Assembly (NCBI RefSeq): GCF_002354895.1
Contig: NZ_CP023439.1
Coordinates: 1,984,001-2,048,000, forward strand
Reading direction: 5' to 3'
Source: Thauera sp. K11
Lineage (GTDB): Bacteria; Pseudomonadota; Gammaproteobacteria; Burkholderiales; Rhodocyclaceae
DNA: 64,000 nt
Below the pieces are notes generated by a model. It searched no databases. It was not told the DNA's origin and saw only the letters and a program-made list of their open reading frames with translations. Both the position numbers and the translations under genes were made by a program. Of the stretch, positions 585 through 21,229 are shown in pieces (within the stretch, counting starts at the first letter, position 1; each line of letters begins with the position of its first letter).

Positions 585-1154
585 ATGCTTCCACACTCCC
601 GCGACGGCCACGCTTTTCTCCCCGACGGCGCGGTCAATGCCCCGCCGATGGCGCCACCACCCCGACCGCTGGGGCGATCCCTCTTGCTGCTCGTCGCCGC
701 CTTCGCCCTCCTGCAATGGGGCTGGAGCGCAGCACGCGGCACCTGGGTCGAGCGGCTGGTGGTCCACGAAGCCACCGTGACCTCGGCGGCCGCCTTCGTG
801 CGTCTCCTCACGCCGGAGATTCCGGCCAAGGCCGTCGGCTCCAGCATCAAGGCACCGGGCGGCGGGCTCAATATCCTCAACGGCTGCGAGGGCACCGAGG
901 TCATGTTCCTCCTCGTCGCCGCCTTTGCCGCCGTCCGCATGCCCTGGCGCCACCGCCTGGCGGGACTGGGGCTGGGCATCGCTGTCGTCTTCCTGATCAA
1001 CCAGGCGCGCATCCTGGCGCTGTTCTACTGCCATCGTGCCGACCGGCAGCTATTTGACACCTTGCACACGGCGGTTCTCCCGGCCGTGCTGGTCGCGTTG
1101 ACCGCTGCCTATTTCTATGCCGTCCTCCACCACGCCCAACGGCGCATGGCCTGA
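585..1154 (+). CDS. Exosortase/archaeosortase-family transpeptidase (copy 1)
   Basis: This is a small polytopic membrane protein of about 189 residues with the exosortase active-site pattern: Cys101 in NGCEG, Arg142 in NQARI and His161 in DTLHT, each at the edge of a hydrophobic segment. Exosortases cut C-terminal sorting signals of exported proteins in the inner membrane. The start is uncertain: no good ribosome binding site is visible, and ATG 585 was chosen because it gives an N-terminal tail like that of the paralogue at 17638-18228. A TTG at 504 or an ATG at 540 are alternatives. The gene overlaps the next one by 38 bases, so they are probably translationally coupled. Its likely substrate is the surface protein two genes downstream. 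I cannot assign an exosortase subclass. Confidence 0.8.
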   Translation: MLPHSRDGHAFLPDGAVNAPPMAPPPRPLGRSLLLLVAAFALLQWGWSAARGTWVERLVVHEATVTSAAAFVRLLTPEIPAKAVGSSIKAPGGGLNILNGCEGTEVMFLLVAAFAAVRMPWRHRLAGLGLGIAVVFLINQARILALFYCHRADRQLFDTLHTAVLPAVLVALTAAYFYAVLHHAQRRMA

Positions 1155-1773
1155 CCCCGGCGGGCTGGTTCTCCGGCTGGCCGTCGCCCTTGGGCTGGTG
1201 ATCGCTATTGCCCTGGTAGGCGGGCGGGCGCTGGTGGAAGCCGTCTTGTCGATCACGACCCCAACCCTCCTGGGCTGGATCGACGACCGCTTCGGCATCC
1301 TCTTCCTTGGCCTCGATCATACCGGCCAGGATACGGTGATCCGCCTGCGGACGAATCTTGTGCGGATGCTCGTCGTCGGGACCCATGTCGTTCAACCTCA
1401 CCCGAAGGGATGGCTGGAGGTGACCACCACCGTCGGCGCCATGCTGCAGCCAGTCACGATTGGGCTCGGTCTGGCGGGGGCCTGGCCGGGAAAAGCCGGC
1501 ATTCGCCTGCTGCGGTTGCTGCTTGTCGCGGTGCTTGGCGTAGCGTTCATGCTGATGGACATTCCTCTCACGCTGCATGCCTATACTTGGGATATGTTCC
1601 TTGATCACTACGATCCCGACCACGTTTCCCCCGTGATGCTGACGCATAATTTTCTGCACGGTGGCGGACGCCTTGCGGTCGGCGTCCTGATGGCGGCGCT
1701 GGTTATCCGGGGCGTCCCGAGGAATCGCCGAGCCAAGTCGGCCGTGGCTGCCGACCCTGGTCACGGGCTATGA
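1117..1773 (+). CDS. Exosortase-partner multi-pass membrane protein (copy 1)
   Basis: This 218-residue protein has at least four hydrophobic segments (about residues 18-38, 108-125, 130-150 and 185-200) and a conserved FLHGGGR motif near the C-terminus. I do not recognise a named family. The same pair is seen on the other strand at 17030-17641, where the partner again follows an exosortase and again carries a FVHGGGR motif, so the association is conserved between two diverged copies. Both contain an (A)LVEA helix near the N-terminus and a GLDHTG/ALDHEG-type motif after about 60 residues. The role is unknown; a scaffold or substrate-delivery factor for the exosortase is inference. Confidence 0.65.
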   Translation: MPSSTTPNGAWPDPGGLVLRLAVALGLVIAIALVGGRALVEAVLSITTPTLLGWIDDRFGILFLGLDHTGQDTVIRLRTNLVRMLVVGTHVVQPHPKGWLEVTTTVGAMLQPVTIGLGLAGAWPGKAGIRLLRLLLVAVLGVAFMLMDIPLTLHAYTWDMFLDHYDPDHVSPVMLTHNFLHGGGRLAVGVLMAALVIRGVPRNRRAKSAVAADPGHGL

Positions 1774-1846
1774 CAACGGTGATATAAAAGCCGTTTGTCA
1801 TGAGCCGTTCGGCTCAAAAGAGGCCCGCAACAGGTGTAATGACAAA
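1770..1846. promoter_or_regulatory. Cluster of ATGACAA/TTTGTCAT repeats before the surface-protein gene
   Basis: The 114-base gap before the GTG start at 1888 carries three copies of one short motif: ATGACAA at 1770-1776, TTTGTCAT at 1794-1801 and ATGACAAA at 1839-1846. The first two form an inverted repeat (ATGACAACGG, 11-base AT-rich spacer, CCGTTTGTCAT). A fourth copy, TTTGTCAT, lies at 534-541 ahead of the exosortase gene. Repeated half-sites in front of both parts of the locus look like an operator, but no regulator is encoded beside them. Confidence 0.4.
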
Positions 1847-1887
1847 TAGGTAGTCTCCCTACCCGGTTAACCGGAGGGGGAGAGCTC

Positions 1888-3387
1888 GTGGACCGTCATC
1901 ATTTCCTGTCGGCATTGTTGCTGACCATCGTTGTCGCCTTGCCGGCGCAGGGGGCTGTCGACGACGCCCGTGCCAAGGGACTCAAGTGGTTGGTCCAGAC
2001 CCAGAAGGGCGACGGCTCGTTCAGCGGCCTGCAGGGACTGGAAGTGCAAGCCACCGCCGCCACGGTCGATGCGCTGCTGGCGGGCGGCATGAGCAAATCG
2101 CCGCAGTATGGGCGGGCGCTGTCCTGGCTGGCCAACGCGCCTGGAAGCAGTGTCGATGCCCGCGCCTGGCAAGCGGCCGCCCTGGCGGCGGCCGGCCGGG
2201 ACGCCACCGCCGTCGCCGGTACGCTGCGCGATGAACGCAACACCTCGGCGGCCAAGGCCGGGAGCATCAGCACGGGCAATACGGCCCTGTGGGGGCCGTT
2301 TCCCGGCTATGCCGCCAGCTTCCCTGATACGGCCCTGGCGTTCGGGGCCCTGCGCAGCGCCGGTGTCTCCTACACCAACGACACCACCGAACTGACGGTC
2401 ACCGTCCTTTGCCATACCCTGCCGGACCAGTTGACGGCTTCCCCCTGGAACGGGAGTTGGCCCTACGCCTTGCCCCAGAACGGGCAGCCCACCCACGCAG
2501 TCAACGGTTCGCTGGCCGCCACCGCGCTGACGCTCTTTGAGCTCAAGAAGCAACGGCAAGCCGGCCGCTTCCTCAGCGGTTCCGCCTGCTCCAAGACCTC
2601 GCCCTCGGCCATCGACACCGCCATGGCCAGCGCCAAGACCTGGCTGATTGCCCAAGCGAATGCCGACGGCGGCTTCGCGGAACGCAACCCGCAGAGCGGT
2701 ACCCTGGAAGTCTCCAGCCCCACGGCGTCCGCCCTGGCGGTGCGGGCCCTGGCCCTGTTCGCTGCGGAGGGCGACTCCGCCGCCACCACCGCCGTCACCA
2801 ATGCCCGCAACTGGCTGGCGGATCAGCAGAACCCGGACGGCAGCTGGCGGGGCGACCCCTTCGTCACCGCCCGGGTATTGGCGGCCTTTCCCGCCGCGGC
2901 GGGCGCGCAGATTGCCGATGCCGACAATGACGGCCTCCCCGACGTGGTGGAGCAACAATTGGGCACTCAGACCGCCGTGGCCGACGCCCAGGGCTCGCTG
3001 GCCACCAACGGCAACGCCCAGGCCGGCCTCACTGCGACCTCCTTCTCCGCCGCCGGCACCCTCGGCCAGCCCTTCGCCTATGCCTTGTCCGCCAGCGGCG
3101 GCACTGGGCCGTTCACCTACGCCCGCACCGGCGGCGCCCTGCCGCCCGGACTGACCCTGGCGGCCAACGGGCAGATTACCGGGACACCGACCAGTACCGG
3201 CAGCTACGCCTTCGACTACGAGGTGACCGATGCGACTGGCGCGACCACCCTGGTCATCGGCCGCATCGATGTCGCCGAGGTGGTCGCCAGCAGCGGCGGC
3301 GACGCGGACGTTCCCATTCCCGCCTGGGCGCTGCTCGCCCTGGGCGGCGCCTTGCTGACCGCCATCCGCCGCAAGGCGGCGTGCTGA
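1888..3387 (+). CDS. Exported terpene-cyclase-fold repeat protein with Ig-like domain and exosortase-type sorting tail
   Basis: The protein has 499 residues and a GTG start preceded by GGGGGAG at good spacing. The N-terminus is a signal peptide (hydrophobic 8-20, cleavage near AQG-AVD). Three prenyltransferase/squalene-oxidase-type repeats follow, with the pattern W-L-x3-Q-x2-DGS/GF, at about residues 31-45, 248-263 and 307-322. A putative-Ig/cadherin-like segment lies at about 385-460 (LPPGLTLAANGQITGTP). The C-terminus is a tripartite sorting signal: VPIPAW at about 475, a hydrophobic helix, then RRK. The VPIPAW box differs from the PEP box of the gene at 18618 and resembles IPTL/VPLPA-type boxes, so it is probably the dedicated substrate of the adjacent exosortase (inference). 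The fold need not imply catalysis; such repeats also occur in surface proteins. Confidence 0.75.
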   Translation: MDRHHFLSALLLTIVVALPAQGAVDDARAKGLKWLVQTQKGDGSFSGLQGLEVQATAATVDALLAGGMSKSPQYGRALSWLANAPGSSVDARAWQAAALAAAGRDATAVAGTLRDERNTSAAKAGSISTGNTALWGPFPGYAASFPDTALAFGALRSAGVSYTNDTTELTVTVLCHTLPDQLTASPWNGSWPYALPQNGQPTHAVNGSLAATALTLFELKKQRQAGRFLSGSACSKTSPSAIDTAMASAKTWLIAQANADGGFAERNPQSGTLEVSSPTASALAVRALALFAAEGDSAATTAVTNARNWLADQQNPDGSWRGDPFVTARVLAAFPAAAGAQIADADNDGLPDVVEQQLGTQTAVADAQGSLATNGNAQAGLTATSFSAAGTLGQPFAYALSASGGTGPFTYARTGGALPPGLTLAANGQITGTPTSTGSYAFDYEVTDATGATTLVIGRIDVAEVVASSGGDADVPIPAWALLALGGALLTAIRRKAAC

Positions 3388-3422
3388 ACCCCAACGAACG
3401 CGAATCTTCTGAAGAGGCTCCC

Positions 3423-5267
3423 ATGCGCCGCCTGCCCCTGACTTCCCTCATCGCTGCCGTGCTCTGCGCGGGTTTGGCCCACGCTGCGCCGCCCAAGGAA
3501 CTGGCGCCGCTGCCGGCGGAGGCCCTGCAAGCTGTCAAGGCCGCCCAGCACCGCGCCGGCGATCGCCTGGCCGATACCCTGGGCCGCCATCTGTCCGAAG
3601 CCCGCGCCCTGGCGCGCCGCGCCGATGCCGCCACGGACGACGACCTCGCCACCCGGCGCTCCGAGGCAGCCGCCAAGCGGCAGGAGATGCGCACCTTGCG
3701 CGACGAAGTCCTGGCCCGCGTCGACGCCGCGGCGCAGGCGGCGGAAGGCCGCGGCACCGGACGGGCCGCCGGCGAAGGGCGGGAACTGCGCCGCCAACTG
3801 GCCGCCCGTTTCACCCTGCTCGACGCCGACCTCCAGGCCCTGGAGAAGGCGGATCGGGCCAACCTCGGCCCCCGCGCCCGGCAGTTGGCCGACCGCCTCG
3901 CCGCCTGGGAAGCCGCCCGGCCGGTGGCCCCCTTGCCCCAGCCCAACTGGAAGCTCGCCGAACCGCAGCCGGTGACGGAATTGCCAGCGGCTGCCGAGCC
4001 GCCTCGCTTCGTCGGCGATACCCTCTGGCTCCTGCGGCACCACTTCGCCGATGCGGGCGGGGTCATGCGCGTGGCCCTCAAATCCACCCCGGCGGAAGCC
4101 GCTGCCTGCGGCTATACCGCCGCCGACCTGGCCGATACGGCCGAGGCCCCGAAGAGCCACGCCGACATCCAGGCGCTCGCCAAGGAACTGGACTACAACC
4201 CGGCCCGCATCTTTGAATGGGTGAACCAGAACGTCGCCTTCGAGCCCTATTTCGGCTCCTTGAAGGGCGGAGTCTCCACCCTGTGGGCCAAGGCCGGCGG
4301 CGCCACCGACCAGGCCAGCCTGCTGGTGGCCCTGCTGCGCGCTTCCAACGTCCCGGCCCGCTACGTGCGCGGCACCGTCCAGGTGATCGACGCTTCCCCG
4401 AAGGGCGCCGACGGGCGCGGGCCGCGCTGGGTGGGGGCCAAGACCTACCAGGCCGCCGCCAACATCCTCGCCGCCAACGGCAACCCCTCGGCCAGCTACG
4501 GCACCAACAGCCTGGGCCTCGCCCACGTGTGGGTCGAGGCTTGCCTGCCGTATTCCGCCTACCGCGGCGCCGCCGTGGACGATTCCGGCCACCGCTGGGT
4601 ACCGCTGGACCCGTCCTACAAGGACCACCGCTACCAGGCCGGCATCCCGGTCGATAGCGGCTTCGATTTCGACTACACCGGCTGGCTGGCGAGCCGCATT
4701 GACGGCCAGGGCCGCTATCGCCTGCCGCAAGAGCACTTCGCCGACCAGACGGTGGCCCATGCCCGCACCAAGGCCCCCAACTACGCCAACAACACCCTCG
4801 AAGACATCCCCTACAAGAGCGAAATCAAGCGCACCCGCTTCGACATCCTGCCCATCGTCCCGCCCTACGAAGTGGTGAAGTACGACAGCTGGAGCGGGGT
4901 GGCCGGCGAATCGGCGGAGACTGCCGCGCTGCCCGACCGCCACCGCTACCGCCTGCAGGTGACGGTGAGGAACAAGAGCGGCACCAACCCCGAGAACTAC
5001 GCCGGCAACATCCTCGCCCAGAAAACCCTCAACCTGCCGGAGCTCGCCACCGCCCGCCTGACCCTGGCCTTCCGCGGCGCCACTGCCGGCGACCAGACCG
5101 CCTACACCACCTGGCTCAACAGCGTCGACCCCGGTGCGGCCCCGACCTGCAGCGCCAGCGTCAACGTCGTTCCCGTCCTGCGGTGGACGGTGCGGAACAG
5201 ACCAAGGATGCCGGCAGCGGCACCACCACCCTCTGCTCCTCCGACAATGTTCTCCAACTCAAGGTGA
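3423..5267 (+). CDS. Exported transglutaminase-like N-terminal part of a giant RHS-type protein (frameshifted near 5182)
   Basis: It starts at ATG 3423 behind an AAGAGG ribosome binding site, 35 bases after the surface-protein gene. Residues 1-22 form a signal peptide ending in AHA. An alpha-helical, Ala/Arg-rich region covers about 30-190. A transglutaminase-like core lies at about 270-400, with LAHVWVEA carrying the His and WVPLDPS carrying the Asp. The catalytic Cys position reads Ala in GGATDQASLL, so cysteine chemistry looks lost; this substitution is common in transglutaminase-like domains attached to RHS proteins. Family-like sequence continues to about 5180 and then resumes in another frame (VDGAEQTKDAG) as if one G were missing in CGGTGG. 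Residues after about 586 are therefore probably frameshift product, and the native protein likely runs on to 10858. Confidence 0.7.
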   Translation: MRRLPLTSLIAAVLCAGLAHAAPPKELAPLPAEALQAVKAAQHRAGDRLADTLGRHLSEARALARRADAATDDDLATRRSEAAAKRQEMRTLRDEVLARVDAAAQAAEGRGTGRAAGEGRELRRQLAARFTLLDADLQALEKADRANLGPRARQLADRLAAWEAARPVAPLPQPNWKLAEPQPVTELPAAAEPPRFVGDTLWLLRHHFADAGGVMRVALKSTPAEAAACGYTAADLADTAEAPKSHADIQALAKELDYNPARIFEWVNQNVAFEPYFGSLKGGVSTLWAKAGGATDQASLLVALLRASNVPARYVRGTVQVIDASPKGADGRGPRWVGAKTYQAAANILAANGNPSASYGTNSLGLAHVWVEACLPYSAYRGAAVDDSGHRWVPLDPSYKDHRYQAGIPVDSGFDFDYTGWLASRIDGQGRYRLPQEHFADQTVAHARTKAPNYANNTLEDIPYKSEIKRTRFDILPIVPPYEVVKYDSWSGVAGESAETAALPDRHRYRLQVTVRNKSGTNPENYAGNILAQKTLNLPELATARLTLAFRGATAGDQTAYTTWLNSVDPGAAPTCSASVNVVPVLRWTVRNRPRMPAAAPPPSAPPTMFSNSR

Positions 5268-7857
5268 CCGTCGCCGAATTGCCGTCCAACGGTGGCGTCG
5301 TCAGCTCGGTCAATTACGCCAACATCGCCGCCGCCAGCCTCCAGGCCCTGCACGCCAACGCCTGGCACACCTCGGACGCCTACCTCGCCAAGCGAAGTGA
5401 ACAACTCCTGGCCGCGGTGCGGGCCAACTCCGATCCCAACGCCTCCGAGGCGAGCCGGGATGCCGTCGAAGGCGAATTCCTCAACCTGGCCGCCGCCAAG
5501 TACAGCCGCCATGTGGTGGACGCCACCCGGCAGGTCGGCGGGCTCTTCGGCGAATCGGGCACCACCGGCATCAGCCTGGGTCTGACCTCGGCCCAGGTCA
5601 AGGTCAATTACCTCTTCGATCTGCCTTACGGCCTCTTCCGGAAGGGCTTCCTCATCGACTGGCCCGGCAGCATTTCACCAGCCGTCGGCTCGACGGCACT
5701 ACCGGCGACTGGCGGGCCTTCAAGCTCGCCGGTTTCGCCGGTTCCGCCTACGAGGCCTACATCTGGCAGGAGAACGCCCACCTCGACGCCGTCTCCACCA
5801 CCCGCGGCCTGCAGTTCGCCAAGGAGCAGGGCATCGAGATCCTGCAGATCAACAACAGCAGCGACTGGGCGGCTCAGAAAGCGAAGCTCACCAGCAACGC
5901 CGACAGCACGCTGAACTACGCGGCGAGCCATGTGGCCCAGATCGAGTCGGGCTACGTCAACGCGGGCTTCAAGCTCACCATCCCCCGCAGCCTGATCCGC
6001 TACCCCGACGCGAGCGGCTGGAAGGGCGCCACCTTCTACACCGAGAACTTCACTTCAAACCCAGCCCAAGCCGGCTTCCCATCAACGGCTACAGCGGCGG
6101 CGTGACGGTGGAACCCGGCGAAGGGGCTGCCTCGTCCGAAGGCGAATCGGGCGGCGGCTACACCGGCAACTGGGGTTCGGTCGGGAACGTCTTCAACCCC
6201 AACCTGGGCACCGGCATCGTCGGCGAAGGCACGGCGCCCAGCTTCGCGCAACTGTCCGGCACCAACTCCTGGCAGACCGCCAACGGGCCTTACCAGCGGC
6301 ACCACCTACTCCGGCGACCCGGTGAACATGGTCACCGGCAACCTCATCCACACGAGCGGGACATCAGCATCAAGGGCAAAGGCGGCCTGCCATCGTCTCG
6401 AGCGCTGGTACAACAGCAAGAACCCCAAGGACGGCCCCCTGGGCTACGGCTGGACCCACAGCTTCAACCACTTCATCCGCTTCTACGGGGGTGGAATCGG
6501 GCACCGCCAAGCTTGGCTGGAACGACGGCACCGGCGGGCGAGCGTTTCTTCTCGACTACGGGCCACAGCAGCGCAACATCAGTGTCGGCGCGAGCTTCAG
6601 CGCCCCGGCCGGCATCTACGCGACCGGTCGAGCGCCTCGCCGACGGCAAGTACCGGATCACCGAGCGCTCGGGGATGAAATATGTCTTCGAGAGCGTCAA
6701 CGCACCGCCACGACACCAACCAGAAGGCGCGGCTCCTCTCCATCGCCGACAGAACAACAACACCCTCACGCTCGCCTACGGCGCCGCCTGCGGCAACAAC
6801 TTGTGCACCGTTACCGACGGCTCGCCCGGGCGCTGACCTTCACCTACAACGGCAGCCGCCTCAGCCAGATCAGCGACTGGTCCGGCCGTACCTGGCAGTA
6901 CACGGTGGACGCCAACGGCGACCTCGTCACCTTCAAGAACCCGCTCGCCGTGGCCGGCAGCCAGAACCCGGTCACCTACCAGTACTACACCAGCGCCGAC
7001 GGCGCCAACCTCGCCCACGCCATGAAGCGCTACCAGTTGCCGCGGGGCAACGGCATGGGCTTCGAGTACTACCAGAACGGCCGCGTCTTCCGCCACACCC
7101 CCTTCGGCACCGACGGCGAAGGGAAGCCCGAATCCGCACCACCTTCGCCTGGACCGAGTTCCGCCGCGAAGCGCAGCAGATCGACGGGCAGGGCAACGTC
7201 CGGCGCTTCCTCTTCGACAAATACGGCAACCCGATTGCCATCACCGACGAAGCCGGCGCTGAGACCACCTACACCTACGACACCGCCGCCGGGCGCACCC
7301 ATCTGCGCCTCACCAAGACCGCGCCCAACGGCCAGACCACCGGCTACGCCTACGACACCGCCGGCAACCTCACCGACGTGACGCTGCCTTCCGGGCGGAC
7401 GCTGCAGTACCGCGACCACACCGCCTTCGGCCAGCCCAAGCGGGTCAAGGACGCCAACGGCAACTGGAACCTCAACCGTTTCGACACGGCCGGCAATTTG
7501 ACCGACGTCATCCAGTTGAAGGCCGGCGTTGTCCCCACCGCCGACACCGCCCCGGCCACCGCCAACATCGTCGCCTGGAGCCAATTCCAGGCCGACAGTT
7601 CCGGCAACCCGATCAAGGTCAAACGCCTGCGCGACTGGAGCGGCGCCATCCTCGGCAACCCGGCCAGCGGCGTCGGCCCGAGCCTGGAGACCGCCTACGA
7701 CGCGAGTGCCTTGAACGTCAGCAGCCTCACCCGCCGGGGCGACACCAACGGCAGCCCAGGGAGCCTGGAAGTCGACACCTACAGCGACTTCCAATGGGAC
7801 AGCCTGGGCCGGATGAAGCGCGGTCCGGACGCCGCCTGGTACGCCCGCCGACCATGA
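5183..7857 (+). pseudogene. Middle part of the RHS-type protein, broken by about a dozen frameshifts
   Basis: Coherent RHS-family sequence runs through this stretch but hops between all three frames. Readable blocks are 5183-5690 (ending LFDLPYGLFRKG), about 5686-6050 (GDWRAFKLAGFAG, IWQENAHLDAVSTT), about 6052-6290 (INGYSGGVTVEPGE), about 6300-6350 (NMVTGNLIHT), then a short ERDISIKGKGGLP piece, a RWYNSKNPKDGPLGYGWTHS piece (the usual start of an RHS core), several pieces to 6840, about 6830-7130 (LSQISDWSGRTWQYTVDANG) and 7140-7850 (YD repeats such as YDTAGNLTDVTLPSGR). Most shifts fit single-base losses. Either the gene has decayed here or this stretch of the sequence contains indel errors; flanking parts are intact over kilobases. 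Confidence 0.7.
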
Positions 7858-10800
7858 CTACGACGCCCTCGACCGCCCCATCAAGACCCCCGACGGCCGG
7901 GGCAACACCTGGGCCAGCATCTACGACGACAACGGCAACCCGATCAACGTCGGCCTGACCATCTCCGGCGCCTACCTGGACGGCCACTACGCCACCTGGG
8001 ACGACCTCGACCGCCTGGAGAGGAAGATCGACTACGCCGGCAACGCCACCCTCAACAGCTACAACCCCCTCGGCCACCTCGCCGCCGTCACCGGCCCCGA
8101 CGGCTACACCCTCAACTTCGACCGCGACCCCCTGGGGCGCATCACCGGCGCCTACAACGAGGAAGGCCACCGCGTCTCCCTCGCCCTCGACCCCGACGGC
8201 CGGCCGCGGAGCAGCACCGACCCCAATGGGCTGACCACCAGCTACGAGTACTACGACAGTACGCAAGATGGCCAGTTGAAGCGCACCACGCTGCCCACCG
8301 TCTCGGGGCAAAGTCAGGGCCGGGCCATCGAGATCGCCCAGTACGACGGGGCTGGGCGTCCCACTAAACTCAACGCCATCGCCGCCGACGGCACTATCCG
8401 CGACAGCTACCGCTTCTACGATGAGCTCGGGCGCCTCACCCGCGCCGTCGGCCCGCAGGTTTCCGCCAGCGACACCAGCCGGCCAGTGACCTGCCTCGTC
8501 TACACGGCGCTCGGCGACGTGAGTGAAATCTGGGCCGGCAGCACCACCGACACGGCCAGCGTCACCTGCAATCTCGCCGACTCCAACCTCAAGCAACAGC
8601 AAAGCGCCACCTGGGACGACTGGGGCAGGAAGCTCACCCAGACCGACCCCCTGGGCAAGGTTTGGAAATGGACCTGGAACAGCCATGGCGAACTGCTGAC
8701 CAGCCAGACCCCGACCCAGGTGGTGGCCGGGCAGACCACCACCTACGCCTACGGCACCAAGGGCGCCAGCGGCGAAACCCAGGGCCACCTGAAAACCCGC
8801 ACTGTCCCCGGCGCCCAGACCGTCACCTACACCCGCAACGCCCTGGGTCAGGTGACCAAGGCCGAAACCAAGGACGGCAGCGGCGCCCCGGTGGTCGCCT
8901 ACGACTACGGCTTCGACGCCGCCCACCGCCTCGCCACCGTCACCGACTCCCGAGGGAACAAGACCCTCAGCTACACCTGGACCCCCGGCGGCCGACTGGC
9001 CCGGGTCACCGACAGCGACGGCCACAGCACGAGCTTCGCCTACGACGCCGTCGGAAGGCTCGCCAGCCTCATCGCGCCCAATAATGAAACCGTCAGCTTC
9101 GTCTGGGACGCGGGCGGGCGGCTCGTCGAGAAGCGCCTCAGTTCCGGCTTGCGGACCACCCAGAACTGGTTCGAGGACGGCAGCCTGAAGGACCGGAAGA
9201 ACCTCTTCGGCGCCGCCACCCTCAGCAGCCATGCCTACACCCTGGACGCTCAGGGCCGACGCGCCACCCACGCTGAAAACGTTGGCGGCACCAGCAAGAG
9301 CTGGACCTACGCTTATGACTATCTCGATCGGCTGACCAGCGCCAGCGACGGCACAGCGGAAACCTATGGTTACGACATCTACGGCAACCGGCGAAGCAAG
9401 ACCAAGAGTGGCAGCACCACCGCCTATCTCTACGACCTGGCGCACCAACTCAGCGAAATCCGCAGCGGCAGCGACACCGGCGCGCTGATCGGCGGCGCCA
9501 TCCACGATGCCGACGGGCATCTGACCAAGCTCTGCGAAGGCACCAGCGCCACCAAGAGCGCCAGCGACTGCACCAGCAGCGGCACCGGCGCCACGACGCT
9601 CCAGCTCGCCTGGAACGCCATGGACCACCTCTTGACCGCCACCCGCATCGGCGCTAATGCCGTGACGGAAAGCTACGCGTACGACGACAGCGGCCGGCGG
9701 ATCAGGAAGACCAGCGGCGGCGCCACCACTTACTATCTCTATGACGGCGACGACATCCATGCCGAGTGGTCGGGCACGCTGGCCGGCATGCCGGGTGCGG
9801 TCTATGCCCACGGGGCGGGGACGGACGAACCGATCCTACGGCTGACCGGCAGCACGAACAGCCCGGCGGCGACCCAGGCGGCCTATCTGCAGGATGGGCT
9901 GGGGAGCGTGATTGGCACGGCCAGCGCCACCGGCACGCTGACCGCCAGCCAGCGCTTCGATGCCTGGGGGAACAAGACGGCCGGCAGCGGCACCGTGCCC
10001 GCCTACGGCTACACCGGGCGCGAGCCGGATGCGACGGGGCTTACCTTCTACCGGGCGCGCTACCAGCATCCCGGCCAGGGGCGCTTCATCTCCCGCGATC
10101 CGGCGGGGATGGTCGATGCTATCAGCCCGTATGCATATGTCGCGAACTCGCCGACAAACTTCGTGGATCCGACCGGCCAGTTTCTCGATATTGCGCTGGA
10201 CGCGGGATTCATTGTGTATGACATTGCGGTGCTTGGGCACGATCTGATCGCCAACGGTGGCAAGAACTGGGCGGTGCACACCGGCGCCTTGGCAGCCGAC
10301 GTGGCCGGAGCCGTCATCCCGTTTGTCACCGGTGCGGGGCAAGCCTACCGGGCAGGGAACAAACTGGTCGATGTGGCCCGGCAGGCCGATAATGCGGTTC
10401 CGGCCGGCGGTTCGGCCGCAACCAGGGGGACGAAGGTGCATGGGGAGTTTGATACGGCTCTGAAGAATGGGGCTGGCGGAAAGAATGTCTCAGGCGAGCA
10501 ACCATATGTAAAAGGTGAATGGCTTCAGGACAAATACCGTCCAAAAGGCAGTTCCAATCCCGATGCAGTTGTTGGCAATCCGGCGAATCCCGCTGCTGTC
10601 TTTGATCTCAAGACAGGCAAGTCCGGCATCTCGAACTCGCAGATGACGAAGTACGAACGCAACCTGCCGGAAGGCACGCCGGTCTATACGGTGACACCCA
10701 ACGGCCACAATGCCCCGCGACCCCAGAGCTTGTCCGGGATGGGGGCAGGCCTGAACACGGGTTATCTGGGAGGGCAATTGGTCTTCGGCAGCGATCCTGT

Positions 10801-10858
10801 CCCGTATCAGGGAGGAGTCGTAGGCAATGAGGCGATCGATCCGCGCCTGTACAAGTAA
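7850..10858 (+). CDS. RHS/YD-repeat protein, C-terminal part with PD-(D/E)xK-like nuclease toxin tip
   Basis: One open frame of about 1,000 codons, entered from the broken segment and with no start of its own. From 7850 to about 10080 it is a run of YD repeats (YDALDRP, YDEAGRL/YDAVGRL-type units) that form the RHS shell. The RHS-core end motif follows: GLTFYRARYQHPGQGRFISRDP and SPYAYVANSPTNFVDPTGQ-type sequence near 10045-10180. After this the tip changes character: a hydrophobic segment (about 10190-10330), then at about 10430-10640 a restriction-endonuclease-like motif set with Glu in VHGEFD, Asp in NPDAVVG and Asp-Leu-Lys in FDLKTGK. This matches polymorphic-toxin nuclease tips of the REase fold. 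Base composition drops in the tip. A candidate immunity gene follows 9 bases after the stop. Confidence 0.75.
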   Translation, partial: DHDYDALDRPIKTPDGRGNTWASIYDDNGNPINVGLTISGAYLDGHYATWDDLDRLERKIDYAGNATLNSYNPLGHLAAVTGPDGYTLNFDRDPLGRITGAYNEEGHRVSLALDPDGRPRSSTDPNGLTTSYEYYDSTQDGQLKRTTLPTVSGQSQGRAIEIAQYDGAGRPTKLNAIAADGTIRDSYRFYDELGRLTRAVGPQVSASDTSRPVTCLVYTALGDVSEIWAGSTTDTASVTCNLADSNLKQQQSATWDDWGRKLTQTDPLGKVWKWTWNSHGELLTSQTPTQVVAGQTTTYAYGTKGASGETQGHLKTRTVPGAQTVTYTRNALGQVTKAETKDGSGAPVVAYDYGFDAAHRLATVTDSRGNKTLSYTWTPGGRLARVTDSDGHSTSFAYDAVGRLASLIAPNNETVSFVWDAGGRLVEKRLSSGLRTTQNWFEDGSLKDRKNLFGAATLSSHAYTLDAQGRRATHAENVGGTSKSWTYAYDYLDRLTSASDGTAETYGYDIYGNRRSKTKSGSTTAYLYDLAHQLSEIRSGSDTGALIGGAIHDADGHLTKLCEGTSATKSASDCTSSGTGATTLQLAWNAMDHLLTATRIGANAVTESYAYDDSGRRIRKTSGGATTYYLYDGDDIHAEWSGTLAGMPGAVYAHGAGTDEPILRLTGSTNSPAATQAAYLQDGLGSVIGTASATGTLTASQRFDAWGNKTAGSGTVPAYGYTGREPDATGLTFYRARYQHPGQGRFISRDPAGMVDAISPYAYVANSPTNFVDPTGQFLDIALDAGFIVYDIAVLGHDLIANGGKNWAVHTGALAADVAGAVIPFVTGAGQAYRAGNKLVDVARQADNAVPAGGSAATRGTKVHGEFDTALKNGAGGKNVSGEQPYVKGEWLQDKYRPKGSSNPDAVVGNPANPAAVFDLKTGKSGISNSQMTKYERNLPEGTPVYTVTPNGHNAPRPQSLSGMGAGLNTGYLGGQLVFGSDPVPYQGGVVGNEAIDPRLYK

Positions 10859-10867
10859 GCCGCCATA

Positions 10868-11674
10868 ATGCACAAGGCGCCTGAGATTGCACGGTTCGTC
10901 AGGACGCACCTGCGGACCGCGCTGCCGGAGTTTACTGGGCAATATAAGCAGCGAGATATCCTCCGAATGCGGGGGCATGTGGCGCAGTGGGTGTTCGTGG
11001 GTACAAGTCGTAGCGGATGGATAGACATTTCCCCGACCCTTTCCGTATTGGGGTCGAAGATTTATGAAAAGGATTTGGAGAGCAACAGGTGTAGAGATGG
11101 TTCTATTGACACTAACTCACTAATTAGTACGGTTGCCGCGCTGAAGTCTACGTCTGCCACCGCATTACGCCGATGGCAGTTTCGGCCAGAAACCCTGCTA
11201 GATGAGGCGTTTGCCGCCGAAATCCTCATCAGACTCAAGCAAGACTCACCGATTTCCTTCACCCAGCCGCTGGAAGATGAGGCCATCGACAAGGCCTTGC
11301 GCTGGTTTGGCAAGGACGGTTACTGGCTTGCCCATCTTTTTCTTGCCTACTTCAACATGACCCGTGGCGCCCCCACGGCGCGCAAGGACTTGGCTCAGGC
11401 CTTCGATCTATTCCGTCGCAACAGTCGCCTGTCGACAGACAAGCCTCTGCACGATTGGGAAGAAGCCTTGCTGGCCCGCTTCCGGGAACTGGAATCCCGC
11501 TTGGACCGCACCGACTGCATTGCACTCTGCCGGGCGGACGCCGAAGAGCACGCCCGGTTGCTGAAACTGCCGCCCATCGTCTGGCCCCCCGAATGGCCGG
11601 AGTCGATGCTGCCCTGGCCGACGGAGCCGGACAGCTTGGCTTCCTGGGTGGGCCGACTCTTCAGAAAGCCATGA
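10868..11674 (+). CDS. Candidate immunity protein for the RHS nuclease tip
   Basis: A 268-residue soluble protein without signal peptide or membrane segment, starting 9 bases after the RHS stop codon. I recognise no family; the immunity role is inferred from position and is the usual arrangement for polymorphic toxins. The gene is a mosaic. The first 430 bases or so are AT-richer, like the toxin tip. The last third is GC-rich and carries an Arg/Glu-rich helix (LARFRELESRLDR) and an ALCRADAEEHARLL motif. The same C-terminal block reappears in the remnant at 15787-16014, which suggests a conserved tail that is shared between immunity genes of different toxins. Confidence 0.6.
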   Translation: MHKAPEIARFVRTHLRTALPEFTGQYKQRDILRMRGHVAQWVFVGTSRSGWIDISPTLSVLGSKIYEKDLESNRCRDGSIDTNSLISTVAALKSTSATALRRWQFRPETLLDEAFAAEILIRLKQDSPISFTQPLEDEAIDKALRWFGKDGYWLAHLFLAYFNMTRGAPTARKDLAQAFDLFRRNSRLSTDKPLHDWEEALLARFRELESRLDRTDCIALCRADAEEHARLLKLPPIVWPPEWPESMLPWPTEPDSLASWVGRLFRKP

Positions 11675-12770: not shown

Positions 12771-15719
12771 TCAGGCGGCCAGCGGGAGCCGCCGGCTCAT
12801 GTCCAGCTCGATCCGCCCGTAGGGGTTCACGTGGTGGTATATGAGGGGCGACAGCGCCCGCCAATCTTCTGCCGTCATGCGGTCACGCCAGCCGGGGTCG
12901 GCGAGGACCTCCTGGATGAAGAGCGTATTCACGTAGACCAGGCAGGCCTGCAAGAGGTGCAGCGAGAGCACGGCGAGCTCCTGGTCCTCGACGCGATTGG
13001 TCGCCATCTCGCCCTTCTCGCCGTAAAAGATGAAGTCGTTGGCGCTATTCCAGTTCTCCACCACGTTCAGGCCTTCGTGGATTTCGTGGCGCAGGCCTTC
13101 GTCGTGCAGGTAGCGGCAGAGAAACACCGTCTTGATCGCCTTGCCCAGCTCGGCCAGGGCCTGGTAGGTGGGATGCTGGACGTTGTTGCGGGTGAAGCGG
13201 CGCAGGATGGCCTCGGGCTCCGCCGTCCCGAGCCGTAGGGCAGTGGTGTACTTGATGATTTCGTCGTACTGCTGACGGATCAGGTCCCACTTGATGGCCC
13301 GCGTCAGGACCGGTTCGAGTTGCGCGTAACGCTCGGCGTCGGCCGCCGCCGGCAGGTAGAGCTTCTGCCGGGCGATGGTCTTGAGGCGGGGCAGGAGGTC
13401 GAAGCCCAGGATGTAGCTGAAGGCGAAGGCGACTTCGCTCTGGCCATGGCTGTCCACGTACTGCTGCTCGATCTCCATCGTCGTGCAGTGGCGCAGCACG
13501 CCCTCCATCATGGCCGCCACTTCGGAGGACGAGCAGCGCTTGAGCTGGGAGTAGATACAGGTCGAGTTCTCGTCCACGTGCCAATAGATCATGACGCCGC
13601 GCCCGCCGTAGCGAGCGTGCCATTCGGTCATCAGGTTCTGGTCGTAAGCTCCGAACTGCTTGGAGTCGGAGGCGCAGGCGGTGGTGGCGTCGCCCCAGAT
13701 GGCGGGCTGGCGGATGCGGAAGGTGCCATTGACGATGTCGGCGACTGCCGCCCGCAGTGCTTCCTTGTTGAAGTAGCGGCGCTTCACGTAGCGCAGTTCG
13801 TCGAAGGTGACGCTGGGCTGCTGGCTGGCCACCCGCTTCAAGCCGACGTTGGTGCCGATGCCGAACAGGCAGAGCAGCAAGCGGCGTTGCAATACGGCTG
13901 GGTCCAGCGCCTCGCGGCTGGCCGCCGTGCGGAAGGACGCACTGAAGTTCACGCGCAGGTCGACTTCCTTGACGATGTCGATCAGTTCCACGTCGGACCA
14001 ACGCCGGCCGATCTCGCGCTTCAACGCGGCCGTGTTGGGCGGCTCCACCAGGGGATCGAAGGGGGTGAGATGGATGGTGTTCTTGCCTTGCTTCCGGAGC
14101 CGCACCTTGGGATTCTTCGCCAGGCCGTCGTGGAAGGTCTTGAGCCACCGGTGCATGGCGGCTTGCACCTGGTCGATGAACACTTCGGGATCCTTGGGTG
14201 CTTTGAGCAGGTCGTAGTAGGTGTCACGCTTGGCGTCGAAGTCGGCGGGCAGATCCGCTTCAGGGTCGCGGTAGCGATCGGCACCTTCGACCCAGATCTC
14301 CTTGGTGCGCAGCCGTTTACGCAGGGCCCGCAGCACACAGACTTCGTAGTCGATGCGATTGACCCGCTCGGTCCCGTCCTTGGCCCGTTCGACGATAATG
14401 TGGTGCCATTTCTTCGGCACGACGCCTTCGAGCGGCACCTCGTCGGCCTCGTAGTATTGCCGCCGGCTGTCGCGATGGGCCTGCAGCACGGCAAGGGCGT
14501 CGATCACCGGGCGATGCACCGTATTGTTGGAACGGAAGGCCAGCACGTCCAGGACCGGCATCAGGGCGCTGCGATAGCCGTGGCTGTAGGAGGAGCGCAT
14601 CGTCTCCTGAACCTGGCGCTCGACATCGAGCCCGAGGGCGCCGAACTCGGCTACCAACTCCTGGAGCGTCTTCTGGCTGACCACGGGGTAGACCACTTCC
14701 TTGATCACCCCGTCCGGCTCGTCGGCCGTCGCTTCAGCCAGCTTGAACAGCAGCCGGGCCTTGCCGCGCACTTTCTTGAAGGCGGCGAACTGTTGCTTGT
14801 CGATTTTCTTTTCGGCGCGGGTGCCGATGTTGTGGATGAGTTGCAGCAGCATGTCGACCAGGGCGTCGGTCAGCTGTTGCCGCCGGCGCCAGCAGAACAT
14901 GGCCACCAGGCTGTAACGGATCGGCGCCGGGTGGCGACGCAGTTCGCGGATCGATTCGGTGGCGCAGCGCTGCCGGAACTGGTCGATGAACTTGCCGGGC
15001 ACGCCCTGGAACACGTCGGCTGCAAGGCCGATGGCATCGATAGCTTGGCGCCGGGCGATGCCGGCGAGGAGATTGTCGCGACCGGGTTTGCCGAGGTCAG
15101 CCTTGAGATGGACGAAGCTCGGGGCGGCGGTCGTCGGTTCCGGTACGTTGTCATCGCCGGGGTCGTCGCCCGCCAGCAACTGGTCGATGGCGATGCGGCT
15201 GGCCACCGAGAGGCGGCCGTGGATCATTTCCTGAAGACGGGTCGTGTAGGCGTGCAGCGTGGAACGGATGACACGATCCAAGTGGTCGAGCGCCGGCGGT
15301 TCCAGGTGTTGCGCGTTGCACCACTCCAGGGCGAGGTCGCGGCCGTGGCGGGCCTGGGGGTCGAAGGGGAGGACGTCGCTGGCCAGCCACTCGGCCAAGC
15401 GCCGAAGATCGGGGCCGGTGCTCGGGCGGTATCCCAAGATGGCGCGGATGCTTCGGCGCTGCCGCCGTCCCTGGCGACCGTCGAGCTCAAATTCAGCGAA
15501 GCCGTCCGTGGAGGCGCCGAGTTGCATGGCGATCCACGCCAGTGCAATGGGATCGATTTCGCGGTAGTGCTCGGGAAAGCGACCGTGGTTTTCCATGAAC
15601 TTGAACTGCACCGCGAAGGCCAAGCGACCCTTGTCCGTCATTCCGGGTAGCAGCGCCAACTCGTCGGCGGTCAGCGTCCATTGCTCCTGCAACTCGATGT
15701 CGGTCCACGATTGCGCCAT
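12771..15719 (-). CDS. tnpA: Tn3-family transposase TnpA
   Basis: About 982 residues, the usual length for the family, which makes and joins the DNA strand breaks in replicative transposition. Start ATG 15719 ([10 protein letters not shown]) is preferred over an upstream ATG at 15767 because the family N-terminus matches here ([20 protein letters not shown], a DUF4158-type domain). The C-terminal DDE domain is visible in [75 protein letters not shown] blocks, the last holding the conserved D and the final E region near [14 protein letters not shown]. The reading frame is intact. No serine resolvase is adjacent; a TnpT/TnpS-like pair lies at 20-23.9 kb. Confidence 0.92.
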
Positions 15720-15786
15720 GACAAGCTCCGTCAATGCGAATGGACGGATTATATGAGGCAACGTCACCGAAGCAATGCAGTCTGCA

Positions 15787-16014
15787 TCATGACATGCTTA
15801 TATGGCCTCGAATTGCAGCTTCGCTCCCACTACCCCCGATAGGAGGAAGGCCCAGCAGTCTGGCGTGTTCTTCGGCGTTCGCTCGGCACAGCGCAATGCA
15901 GTCCGGGCGGTCCAGACGGGATTCGAGTTTCTGGAAGCGGGCATATAGCGCTTCCTCAAAATCAAATTCGGCGCGGATGACCCGCCCGAGCGCGTCGCGG
16001 TTATAGCTCAGCAT
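15787..16014 (-). pseudogene. Remnant joining an RHS-like repeat to the conserved tail of the immunity gene
   Basis: The minus-strand reading starts with SYNRDALGRVIRAEF, which fits a YD repeat, and runs straight into EALYARFQKLESRLDR and IALCRANAEEHARLLGLPPI. The latter matches the tail of the gene at 10868-11674 almost residue for residue. After LPPI the homology stops at the Tn3-type repeat and the frame runs into unrelated sequence (stop at 15787). The piece therefore looks like the scar of a deletion that removed toxin tip and immunity N-terminus, later cut by the transposon. It belongs to the inverted second copy of the exosortase-RHS locus. Confidence 0.6.
15797..15836 (-). repeat. Probable terminal inverted repeat of the Tn3-family element
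   Basis: Read outward to inward on the minus strand this 40-base stretch begins GGGG and ends ATATAAG, the classic border of Tn3-family terminal repeats (about 38 bases, GGGG...TAAG). It lies just upstream of tnpA. Homology of the neighbouring immunity remnant stops exactly where this repeat begins, as expected for an insertion border. I did not find a matching copy at the other end near 11.7 kb. Confidence 0.55.
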
Positions 16015-16062
16015 CCGGCACCTTCGAAATAGCCGGGAGCCTGATTAGATTCCCGTTCGTGC

Positions 16063-16077
16063 ATTTATCTGATAAAT
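16063..16077. promoter_or_regulatory. Palindrome before the toxin-antitoxin operon (likely autoregulatory operator)
   Basis: A perfect 15-base palindrome, ATTTATC-T-GATAAAT, lies 47 bases before the antitoxin start, followed by a related half-site TATCTTATC near 16088. Type II antitoxins usually repress their own promoter through such sites. The surrounding 60 bases are clearly AT-richer than the genes. Confidence 0.5.
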
Positions 16078-16124
16078 TTCACCCTCGTATCTTATCGTTT
16101 TCCATCACCAGCGCGGGCGATTGC

Positions 16125-16580
16125 ATGAGCACCCACACCATTGATACCGCGATGGCTCGCCGCATGGTCGAAGCGCAGGCGATCCGGGGCGCATCCATCA
16201 TCGGCCAGCCCGGCGGTTGGTCGATCATGCTGAAAATGGGCATGACCGAAAAGCCGCTCGGCACGCAGCGCACCGACAAGCCGCGCACCTGGCGCAGTCT
16301 CGATACCTGCGTCGCCTATCTGCGCAACGAACTGCACATCGTCCGTGTCGACATGCTGGACGCCAGCAACCACAGCGAGGCCGACACCGGCCGCCGGCGG
16401 GCCGACACCGCCGAGCGGATGAAGCGCGCCCACGAGGCCGCCGCTTATGATGCGTGGTTCCGCGCCCAGGTGCAGGCGAGCATCGACGATCCCCGGCCGA
16501 GCATTCCGCACGAGGAAGTCATGGCCGAGTTTGCAGAACGCCGGGCGGCGCTTCGTAAGAAGATCGACGCCGCCAGATGA
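16125..16580 (+). CDS. Putative antitoxin of a type II toxin-antitoxin pair
   Basis: A 151-residue protein whose gene overlaps the ParE/RelE-type toxin by four bases (ATGA), the usual antitoxin-first arrangement. The C-terminal half is highly charged and helical (RRRADTAERMKRAHEAAAYD, then IPHEEVMAEFAERRAALRKK), which fits the toxin-wrapping tail of antitoxins. The N-terminal part (GASIIGQPGGWSIMLKMG) is a short beta-rich segment that I cannot assign. Start ATG 16125 was chosen because the palindrome at 16063 then lies at operator distance. Similar pairs are often carried by Tn3-family elements, but this one lies outside the terminal repeat at 15797. Confidence 0.7.
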   Translation: MSTHTIDTAMARRMVEAQAIRGASIIGQPGGWSIMLKMGMTEKPLGTQRTDKPRTWRSLDTCVAYLRNELHIVRVDMLDASNHSEADTGRRRADTAERMKRAHEAAAYDAWFRAQVQASIDDPRPSIPHEEVMAEFAERRAALRKKIDAAR

Positions 16581-16870
16581 CGCGGATCATTTGGCGCCCT
16601 GCAGCCCGTGAGGACCGGGCCGCGATCATGGACTACATCGCCGAGGACAACCCGGTTGCCGCGTTGGACCTGGACGAACTGATCGAGGAAAAGACCAATG
16701 CCCTGGCCGACCATCCCAGGCTCTACAAGCCGGGTCGGATGAAGGGCACGCGGGAAATGGTCGTCCATCCCAACTACGTCGTCGTGTACCAGGAGAACAG
16801 CAAGGCCAAGACCGTGACCATCGTGCGCGTGCTCCATGCGGCGCAGCAGTGGCCGCCGGCCAAGTCCTGA
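16577..16870 (+). CDS. ParE/RelE-superfamily toxin
   Basis: A 97-residue protein with the typical start TRIIWRPAAREDRAAIMDYIA and core motifs DELIEEKTNALADHP, LYKPGRMKGTREMVVHPNY and VVYQ, ending in the IVRVLHAAQQWP strand-helix that is diagnostic of the ParE branch. ParE toxins inhibit gyrase whereas RelE toxins cleave mRNA; the RVLHAAQ-type C-terminus favours ParE. The gene overlaps the antitoxin gene by four bases. Immediately downstream the scrap of the second surface-protein gene begins, so the pair sits at a deletion breakpoint. Confidence 0.85.
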   Translation: MTRIIWRPAAREDRAAIMDYIAEDNPVAALDLDELIEEKTNALADHPRLYKPGRMKGTREMVVHPNYVVVYQENSKAKTVTIVRVLHAAQQWPPAKS

Positions 16871-16918: not shown

Positions 16919-17062
16919 AGCCCATGCTGCCCGCCCGCATCGCCTCGACGGCGCCTGCGGTCGCCTGGATCTCCAGACCCCGCTGCCCGCCAAAGGAGCC
17001 GCCCCCCTTCTGGGTCTGCACCAGCCATTTCAGGCCCCTGGCACGGGCATCGTCGACGGACC
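16919..17062 (-). pseudogene. Fragment of a second terpene-cyclase-fold surface-protein gene
   Basis: About 47 codons on the minus strand (SVDDARARGLKWLVQTQKGG, then GSFGGQRGLEIQATAGAVEA) match residues 23-70 of the protein at 1888-3387 almost exactly. Signal peptide and start codon are missing: the match begins directly inside the end of the exosortase-partner gene. After MRAGSMG it runs into unrelated AT-rich sequence next to the toxin gene. Two deletions therefore trimmed both ends. Its position downstream of an exosortase pair copies the order at 585-3387. Confidence 0.8.
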
Positions 17063-17641
17063 CGTAGGCGATCGCCCGCCCCGCACCGCGGCGAGCGCCG
17101 CCACCAGGGCCAGCACATAGCGCCCGCCGCCATGGACGAAGGACTTCCACGCCAGCAGCGGGGAGGCCGTCCCCGGGGCGAGCGCATCGAGCACCGTCCG
17201 CCACAGCTCGCCCGCGAGCACGCAGGGCACGTCGGCCAGCACCAGTATCGCCAGCAGGGGCGCGAGCAGGAGCAGCCGCAAGGGGTACTCGGAGTAGCGC
17301 TGCGCAGGCCAGGCGAACGCGGCGGTGAGCATCACCAGCGGCCCTTGCAGCGCATGCGCGGTCAGGGTCGACACGTTCCCCACCCCGCGCGGGTCCATTT
17401 CCAGGACCCGTCCGTCGAGCAGGAAGAACGGTTTCCACGCCACCGTGGCACGCACCACGCGGTCGGCGCCTTCGTGATCCAGGGCGAGCGTGAGCAGGTC
17501 GAAGTCGTCCATCAACCAGGAAAACACCGCGCGATACGCCGGCAGCCAGGCTTCGACCAGCGCCTGCCCGTAGTGCACCGCCAGCACGGCGAGCCCCCCG
17601 CCCGCCAGCGCCAGGCGCAGCGCAACCCGTGCCGGGTTCAT
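17030..17641 (-). CDS. Exosortase-partner multi-pass membrane protein (copy 2)
   Basis: A 203-residue membrane protein that parallels the gene at 1117-1773: an ALVEAW helix near residue 27, ALDHEGADRV near 52, hydrophobic segments at about 10-22, 100-112, 122-142 and 172-186, and the FVHGGGRYVL motif near 170. It starts four bases before the end of the exosortase gene (ATGA overlap), tighter than in copy 1. The last residues (after AAVRGG) are not homologous, because a deletion fused its 3' end to the surface-protein fragment; the native C-terminus is probably lost or altered by a few residues. Confidence 0.65.
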   Translation of the reverse strand: MNPARVALRLALAGGGLAVLAVHYGQALVEAWLPAYRAVFSWLMDDFDLLTLALDHEGADRVVRATVAWKPFFLLDGRVLEMDPRGVGNVSTLTAHALQGPLVMLTAAFAWPAQRYSEYPLRLLLLAPLLAILVLADVPCVLAGELWRTVLDALAPGTASPLLAWKSFVHGGGRYVLALVAALAAVRGGRSPTGPSTMPVPGA

Positions 17642-18228
17642 CTACACTGCGCCGCGGGCGCGGCGGCGGGCGCGCGCTCCAGCCACACGAAGAAGAAGGC
17701 CGCCACCGCAGCGACGAGCAGCAGCGGCGCGATCAGCCCGTGCAGCATCTCGAACAGGCCGGGGTCGCTGCGAAAGGAATAGAAGAGGGCGATGATGCGG
17801 ACCTGGTTCAAGGCGAACACCATCGCGGCGCCGACCGCCAGCCCCGCCAGTCGCCGGCGCCACGACAGCGGCGCCACCAGCATGGCGCTGGCCATCAGGA
17901 ACATCACGTCCGCCCCCTCGCAGCCGTTGAGCACGTTGATGCCACCGCCCGGCGCCCGCAGCCGCGATCCCGCAGCCTCGACCCCGAGCGCGGGATCGGC
18001 GGCATCGATCAGCCACGCCGCGGTCCCCACCGTCGCCCGGTCGATGACCAGGCGCTCGACCCAGCCGCCGCGCCCGGCATCGTAGGCGCCCAGCATCACG
18101 GCAAACAGCAGCACGAACAGCACCACCCGCACGAGCAGGCCGCGCCGGGAACCGGAGGGCGGTTCGGCGTCCGGTCCGGATTCGCCGGGCCAGTAGGGCA
18201 CACCGGAGGACGAGCGCGGCAGGGTCAT
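17638..18228 (-). CDS. Exosortase/archaeosortase-family transpeptidase (copy 2)
   Basis: A 196-residue polytopic membrane protein with the exosortase triad: Cys103 in NGCEG, Arg144 in NQVRI and His163 in EMLHG. The GGGINVLNGCEG and WRRRLAGLAVG blocks match copy 1 at 585-1154. Start ATG 18228 has GGAAGG at good spacing. No intact substrate gene remains in this locus, since only a fragment survives at 16919-17062. It could still act on the copy 1 substrate or be on its way to loss. The PEP-CTERM gene at 18618 is adjacent, but its PEP box is of another class. Confidence 0.8.
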   Translation of the reverse strand: MTLPRSSSGVPYWPGESGPDAEPPSGSRRGLLVRVVLFVLLFAVMLGAYDAGRGGWVERLVIDRATVGTAAWLIDAADPALGVEAAGSRLRAPGGGINVLNGCEGADVMFLMASAMLVAPLSWRRRLAGLAVGAAMVFALNQVRIIALFYSFRSDPGLFEMLHGLIAPLLLVAAVAAFFFVWLERAPAAAPAAQCR

Positions 18229-18533: not shown

Positions 18534-18617
18534 TGAAAGGCGGAAGATTTTCGGAATAGACCGGCCGCATGCCGGTCACCCGTATTCTTGCCACACCTTC
18601 CCGATTGGAGACGTACT

Positions 18618-21112: not shown

Positions 21113-21229
21113 TTTTTGGCTCGGATCTTTGACCAATGTCAGGATGGTAGCTGCCTTGGCGGTGGAATCAACTAAAACAGACGGACCAGTCCGGAAACCG
21201 GTCAGTTCTGCCCGTATTATCATTAACTT

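Follow-up and report, generated by a model that had tools for sequence, protein, structure and literature searches.

RHS toxins are best known as cargo of type VI secretion or of Tc toxins, and exosortases, to our knowledge, have many predicted clients but few of understood function. Sec-exported RHS toxins with an inactive transglutaminase domain have been described, and it was suggested that this domain anchors them at the cell surface (Zhang et al. 2012, PMC3482391). The RHS cage of Tc toxins is built from two proteins, TcB and TcC (PMC8765631). Here we analyzed a 64,000-nucleotide stretch of the Thauera sp. K11 genome (contig NZ_CP023439.1, positions 1,984,001 to 2,048,000; the window), in which genes for an exosortase, a partner membrane protein, a secreted protein with a sorting tail and a giant transglutaminase-like/RHS protein follow one another on one strand. 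An earlier reading of the letters of the window, which we call the original prediction, had proposed that the exosortase anchors a surface protein that displays or releases the RHS toxin. We arrive at a broader reading, to which we assign a probability of about one half: exosortase-anchored surface display of a Sec-exported RHS toxin, sometimes split, that does not need type VI secretion.

The first gene of the set encodes a protein that scored 28.2 bits against the Pfam model Exosortase_EpsH (PF09721; cut-off 25.7), which makes it a member of the exosortase superfamily. Its residues Cys101, Arg142 and His161 were invariant in nine aligned sequences (both window copies and seven relatives), and among 28 exosortase open reading frames (ORFs) from the window and the fetched loci the Cys was kept in 28/28 and the Arg and the His in 27/28 each, the sole exception being a split ORF in L048. 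Family score and residue conservation together bear out the exosortase named in the original prediction. We also tested its membership of XrtM or XrtH and rejected both, as the scores lay under the curated cut-offs: the first and second exosortases of the window gave 53 and 69.5 bits with XrtM (TIGR04300; cut-off 125) and 50.2 and 57 bits with XrtH (TIGR04177; cut-off 86), and the best XrtM score among the relatives was 115.8 bits (L052). The partner membrane protein, also foreseen, is encoded by a gene that overlaps that of the exosortase. It matched nothing in Pfam or NCBIfam, and its predicted fold (AlphaFold model, predicted local distance difference test (pLDDT) 89.9) had no PDB match at E<=0.001; 161 homologues were found at E<=1e-3. 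The third gene encodes, as predicted, an exported repeat protein that ends in VPIPAW, a helix and RRK, and consists of a squalene-cyclase-like part and a putative Ig domain. Its AlphaFold model (mean pLDDT 70.8) matched a squalene-hopene cyclase in Foldseek with an E-value of 1.1e-5 and a TM-score of just 0.37. The DxDD motif, which we take to be that of terpene cyclases, is absent from this protein (P0003), and an active terpene cyclase was rejected on this ground. The IPTL-CTERM models (TIGR04174/PF18203; cut-off 20.5) gave no match to the sorted protein of the window, and 19.7 and 16.9 bits in L052 and L055.

This gene set recurs in Thiobacillus, in Hydrogenophilales and in other metagenome-assembled genomes. 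A scan of 84,980 species genomes for the exosortase yielded seven loci, in four of which (L007-L010) the sorted protein came next; the full giant then followed in three, with L007 reaching the contig end. The order exosortase, partner, sorted protein, transglutaminase-RHS protein was found in L008, L009, L010, L052 and L062, and as far as the contig end in L007. The original prediction had named a failure of the exosortase, partner and RHS genes to lie together elsewhere as its refutation, and it survived this test at those five loci. In L061 the genes lie on one strand as sorted protein, RHS protein, two small genes, exosortase and partner. We then searched 300 genomes of the order of the window organism with profiles. 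The partner matched in 16/300. Fifteen of these partner-positive genomes supplied 17 loci, and an exosortase ORF adjoined the partner in 16 of them, none being found in L042. Eleven sorted-protein matches exceeded 100 bits, and nine of them are followed on their own strand, after 39-809 bp, by a transglutaminase-RHS match; four of these nine pairs are in the window's own genome. Most sorted-protein matches of 42-57 bits were left out of the count, as they cover the Ig part only and are mostly embedded in other long frames. Conversely, a sorted protein precedes seven of the eight transglutaminase matches above 400 bits.

Stronger than the evidence of the original prediction, and absent from it, is the presence of sorting signals inside RHS proteins. 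In the DNA of the Thauera sp. K11 genome, the pattern VPxPxxW had 22 matches, seven of which we read as sorting signals (five internal, two C-terminal), and the reversed-pattern control had eight. The five internal signals lie inside RHS proteins at 1.283-1.301 Mb, where VPLPAW is followed by a helix, RRR and a second signal-peptide-like stretch, after which the YD repeats resume. Of the five, one is a 1590-aa protein with a signal peptide at its own N-terminus; the remainder are displaced cassettes of shorter length. The surrounding region (L034/L035, ~1.275-1.304 Mb) consists of tandem RHS cassettes with differing ends behind one full-length RHS gene, and each tandem cassette repeats the internal signal. 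A homology search with the junction revealed 21 proteins of like arrangement among the 120 matches listed of 723; their motifs are VPTLPEW or resemble VPLPAW. From the internal signal to the Rhs core we counted 256-304 residues in 7/7 proteins measured, from the own genome and others, and the last residues of the second stretch read A-x-A in 23/28 junctions as scored by script (about 27 junctions, since P0151 and L102 probably represent the same protein with the same junction). P0237 was excluded, its motif match not being at an RHS junction; in P0150, P0168 and P0169 the junction is hydrophobic over a stretch but lacks the motif. IPTL-CTERM models recognized some of the internal segments, with 28.5 bits for P0146 and 21.2 for P0151 (cut-off 20.5), and 20.8 for L098, which equals its cut-off of 20.8. 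Full internal signals free of stops occurred in 4/300 genomes of the order, all four of them partner-positive. A sorting signal within the toxin itself suggests surface display without the usual injection machine.

Tails and internal signals also follow the partner across genomes. At a detection threshold of E<=0.001, they were present in 15/16 partner-positive and 8/284 partner-negative genomes of the order (Fisher 1e-18, a value that ignores shared descent), and five of these eight (G022, G133, G152, G171 and G250) have a weaker exosortase match. In a sample of 274 genomes of the class, with the window's own genome left out of the tail counts, tails were found in 3/4 partner-positive and 4/269 partner-negative genomes. 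Among these four partner-negative genomes is G559, a distant one, where an RHS gene with a full internal signal diverges from an exosortase and a partner gene, with 15 nt between the longest ORFs as drawn; its partner match is weak (39 bits). In G400, G467 and G536 the tail lies <=5 kb from the exosortase-partner pair on the same contig. G032, in contrast, matched neither exosortase nor partner, and the homologue of the sorted protein found there is tailless in all three frames. The type VI sheath gene (TssB/VipA, PF05591) is absent in five of nine carriers of the system (G236, G014, G075, G286 and G559); the system therefore does not require type VI secretion, and delivery need not go by that route. 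To this extent the original prediction of a delivery not tied to type VI stands; the window's own genome has the sheath gene.

The exported protein itself has the features of a polymorphic toxin. The giant of the window scored 125.8 bits for RHS_repeat and 68.2 bits for Rhs_assc_core, and its signal peptide, judged by eye, begins at 3423, in line with the Sec signal predicted earlier. The transglutaminase-like domain lacks a Cys at the place expected for the family in 7/7 aligned sequences, and keeps the His and the Asp; an active transglutaminase was rejected because the catalytic Cys is missing. Signal peptide, Cys-less domain and RHS repeats place the giant among the inactive-transglutaminase RHS toxins. 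Its orthologues are single ORFs of 2527 (L008), 2507 (L009), 2493 (L010), 2473 (L061) and 2418 aa (L062). These giants are alike and their tips differ, with Endonuclea_NS_2 in L008, Tox-REase-7 in L010 and a DddA-like tip in the second giant of the Thauera sp. K11 genome; RHS repeats, Rhs core and a variable tip from three toxin or nuclease families on orthologous giants make up the architecture of RHS polymorphic toxins. The tip of the window giant carries PD-x14-DLK; it matched no family and no PDB sequence, and among 930 candidate homologues we found only the window's own protein. The predicted ORF close behind the RHS gene (P0004) is present, and its position makes it a candidate for an immunity gene. 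It had no match in Pfam or NCBIfam at E<=0.1, in the PDB at E<=1 or among 72,556 plasmid records at E<=1e-3. About 2 kb before the window (L037:7921-8016, minus strand) lies a piece that is 47% identical to the C-terminal 32 residues of P0004. The tip region of one internally signalled RHS protein (L099:5412-6131) matched Serum amyloid A (PF00277, 101.3 bits), which is odd for a bacterial tip.

How such proteins might reach the surface can be outlined in a more specific model, which we hold tentatively and at clearly less than even odds. In this undescribed delivery mode, an XrtM/XrtH-like exosortase with a dedicated partner would anchor one piece of an RHS cage, either the sorted protein or an N-terminal half that is cut internally, and a second signal peptide would export the toxin piece, so that a split cage would form at the surface without type VI secretion. 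In the broader reading given at the outset, the exosortase-partner pair, allied to XrtM and XrtH, would process and anchor proteins with VP[LI]PAW or VPTLPEW tails. A first class of clients would be the surface protein with terpene-cyclase fold and Ig domain, whose gene stands directly before that of an RHS toxin which has an inactive transglutaminase domain and an exchangeable tip and is exported by Sec; once anchored, this protein would offer the RHS cage a docking site on the cell surface. The other form is fused: here the RHS protein itself contains the sorting signal, and a second signal peptide follows. By the established topology of such signals, the first helix of the fused protein would stop transfer with RRR in the cytoplasm, and the exosortase would cut at the motif and anchor the N-terminal part of the cage. 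The second stretch would restart export and take the C-terminal part, with its core and tip, across the membrane, and signal peptidase would cleave after A-x-A. The two RHS parts could then meet outside the inner membrane and form a split cage resembling that of TcB and TcC. In the gene pair of the window this junction would recur, interrupted by a stop and a start codon.

Several observations weigh against exosortase-anchored display. Two of the eleven strong sorted-protein matches come without an RHS gene; both are in G236, one running off a contig end and the other partial at a contig start. One strong transglutaminase match (G032:C90) is not preceded by a sorted protein, and neither are several weaker ones. 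Pairs of sorted protein and RHS gene stand apart from any exosortase in L036, L057 and L058; such loci occur in the window's own genome. Three of the eight partner-negative genomes with tails (G014, G166 and G266) have no exosortase match, G014 carrying a tailed protein together with an RHS gene, and G029 has exosortase and partner with no tail match. With the midcut-by-XrtH model (NF033207; cut-off 45), three of six RHS proteins (P0133, P0139 and P0146) stayed far under the cut-off, with scores of 19.6, 16.2 and 14.8 bits among them, and the other three did not match; L035 had no match. The type VI sheath gene is present in four of nine carriers, that of the window among them.

A further such observation concerns the window locus itself. 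In our view it is slightly more probable than not that this locus has decayed and no longer works, the system being functional elsewhere. Signal peptide, transglutaminase-like domain, RHS repeats, core and tip of the predicted giant were all recovered, but its single open frame was not: comparison with intact relatives places changes of frame near 5183, 5675, 7138 and 7846, and several more at ~6.0-7.1 kb. Decay of this locus also fits the remnant state of the second copy in the window, described below, and the fact that the second giant of the same genome is open, with a frame of 2601 aa. On the other hand, third-position G+C remains high from one frame to the next, following the changes; an assembly error or a very recent change is therefore possible.

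An alternative that we regard as somewhat unlikely is that the exosortase is a general sorter of surface proteins which lies beside the pair by chance, with the RHS toxin Sec-exported and otherwise released and the sorted protein unrelated to its delivery. In L005 and L006 exosortase and partner adjoin a VPLPAW-tailed subtilisin-like protein in opposite orientation, and VPLPAW/IPTL-tailed subtilisin-like proteins lie beside the exosortase at other loci as well. L011 has a diverged version, in which the stretch immediately upstream of the exosortase (L011:3957-9843) encodes two proteins tailed with VPIPLW or VPLPAW, one subtilisin-like and the other a nuclease of the ExeM/NucH type. The exosortase is therefore not dedicated to the RHS pair, and on this point the original prediction does not hold; these neighbors speak for the general sorter. 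So do the weaker transglutaminase-RHS matches that lack a sorted protein, and the fact that toxins with signal peptide, transglutaminase-like domain and RHS repeats are described with no mention of an exosortase in the available part of the source (PMC3482391). What argues against chance neighborhood is that the sorted protein stands directly upstream of the RHS gene in 9/11 strong matches, also away from the exosortase, and that RHS proteins themselves contain internal sorting signals.

Even less likely, in our view, is that the internal signal is a relic of gene fusion, that is, a plain and uncut pair of membrane helices. In the Thauera sp. K11 genome the displaced shorter RHS cassettes repeat this segment in tandem, and it may therefore be passively carried along. 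Yet the motif and the A-x-A end are kept although the surrounding proteins are only ~40-50% identical, and the distance to the core is as steady as described above. Finally, the RHS giants are most improbable as teneurin-like surface adhesins: the window tip and the gene at 10868 lack a family match, as adhesins would allow, but the tips of orthologous giants match toxin and nuclease families.

The features of the locus and of the adjacent inverted copy are compiled in the table below. The original prediction had seen in this copy the same gene order once more, and in this an argument that the set moves as a unit. We found a decayed remnant in which only exosortase 2 and partner 2 are intact, and rejected a full second cassette at 15.8-18.2 kb; the remnant lies beside a Tn3 transposase and a ParE/PaaA2 pair. 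As a remnant it is therefore no evidence of an intact set moving as a unit. A sorted-protein profile match of 59.5 bits in the own genome corresponds to its remnant sorted-protein gene, and a 127-nt inverted repeat around the Tn3 transposase is accounted for by the gene at 10868 occurring twice rather than by transposon ends.

Features of the window locus and of its inverted second copy (positions within the window).
Feature	Position	Strand	Remarks
Exosortase, XrtM/XrtH-like	585..1154	+	PF09721 match; Cys101/Arg142/His161
Partner membrane protein, no named family	1117..1773	+	Overlaps exosortase gene
Sorted protein: signal peptide, alpha/alpha toroid, Ig-like domain, VPIPAW-helix-RRK tail	1888..3387	+	
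Putative sorting signal GDADVPIPAW-hydrophobic helix-RRKAAC	3294..3384	+	Tail found by pattern; start approximate
Transglutaminase-like/RHS giant gene, N-terminal signal peptide	3423..10858	+	Frame-broken here; intact in L008-L010, L061, L062
Transglutaminase-like domain without catalytic Cys (GGATDQ), His and Asp kept	4194..4613	+	PF01841 47.2 bits; 7-sequence alignment
RHS repeats, Rhs core, PD-x14-DLK tip	7846..10858	+	Single open frame
Candidate immunity gene (P0004), by position only	10868..11674	+	ORF start 9 nt after RHS stop
Tn3-family transposase ORF	12771..15767	-	
Remnant of gene like that at 10868	15837..15963	-	Piece of ~106 bp, 80% identity
PaaA2/ParE toxin-antitoxin pair	16059..16867	+	Between second-copy remnant pieces; 63.5 and 75.4 bits
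Sorted-protein gene remnant	16923..17069	-	47-residue piece, 72% identity
Partner 2	17030..17641	-	Intact
Exosortase 2	17638..18228	-	Intact; 44% identical to first

Around the two copies we noted a phage-integrase family ORF just before the first exosortase (window 7-507; PF00589, 48.9 bits), with another integrase-family ORF upstream (L037:9314-10498). Downstream lie a PEP-CTERM-motif protein (window 18588-19292, plus strand; 25.2 bits, cut-off 20.7) and a KfrA_N-type protein (20024-21223, minus strand; 69 bits). The Thauera sp. K11 genome also encodes two full-size exosortases. Scans of the DNA for tRNAs and with Rfam yielded nothing useful.

Sec-exported RHS toxins with an inactive transglutaminase and the idea of a midcut are already known. 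A link of an exosortase-partner pair, a sorted protein and signals within RHS proteins to such toxins was not found in our searches of open-licence papers. If true, our reading describes a new surface-display route for polymorphic toxins and supplies a set of clients for studying exosortase chemistry. It makes a definite prediction, as an internal signal followed by a second signal peptide should produce two fragments of known size, one of them exosortase-dependent.

With the toxins of Zhang et al. (PMC3482391) the giants share the signal peptide, the transglutaminase-like domain without catalytic residues, the RHS repeats and the variable tip; they differ in that a sorted partner and often an exosortase are encoded alongside, whereas exosortase and PEP-CTERM go unnamed in the available part of that paper. 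With the IPTL-CTERM/exosortase H and XrtM systems (TIGR04174, TIGR04177, TIGR04300) the set shares the exosortase fold and the succession of motif, helix and basic tail, and some of its tails reach or nearly reach the IPTL_CTERM cut-off. Unlike in those systems, VP[LI]PAW tails are frequent, an unnamed partner is co-encoded and the exosortases tested stay under the family cut-offs. The midcut-by-XrtH family (NF033207), judged by the name of its model, likewise has a sorting signal in mid-protein, but the RHS proteins described here score far below its cut-off. The TcB/TcC cocoon of Tc toxins and the Rhs effectors of type VI secretion have an RHS cage around a C-terminal toxin (PMC8765631), as the giants would have. 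The type VI effectors carry prePAAR/PAAR according to the same source, in whose place we find an N-terminal signal peptide and an exosortase signal that splits the chain.

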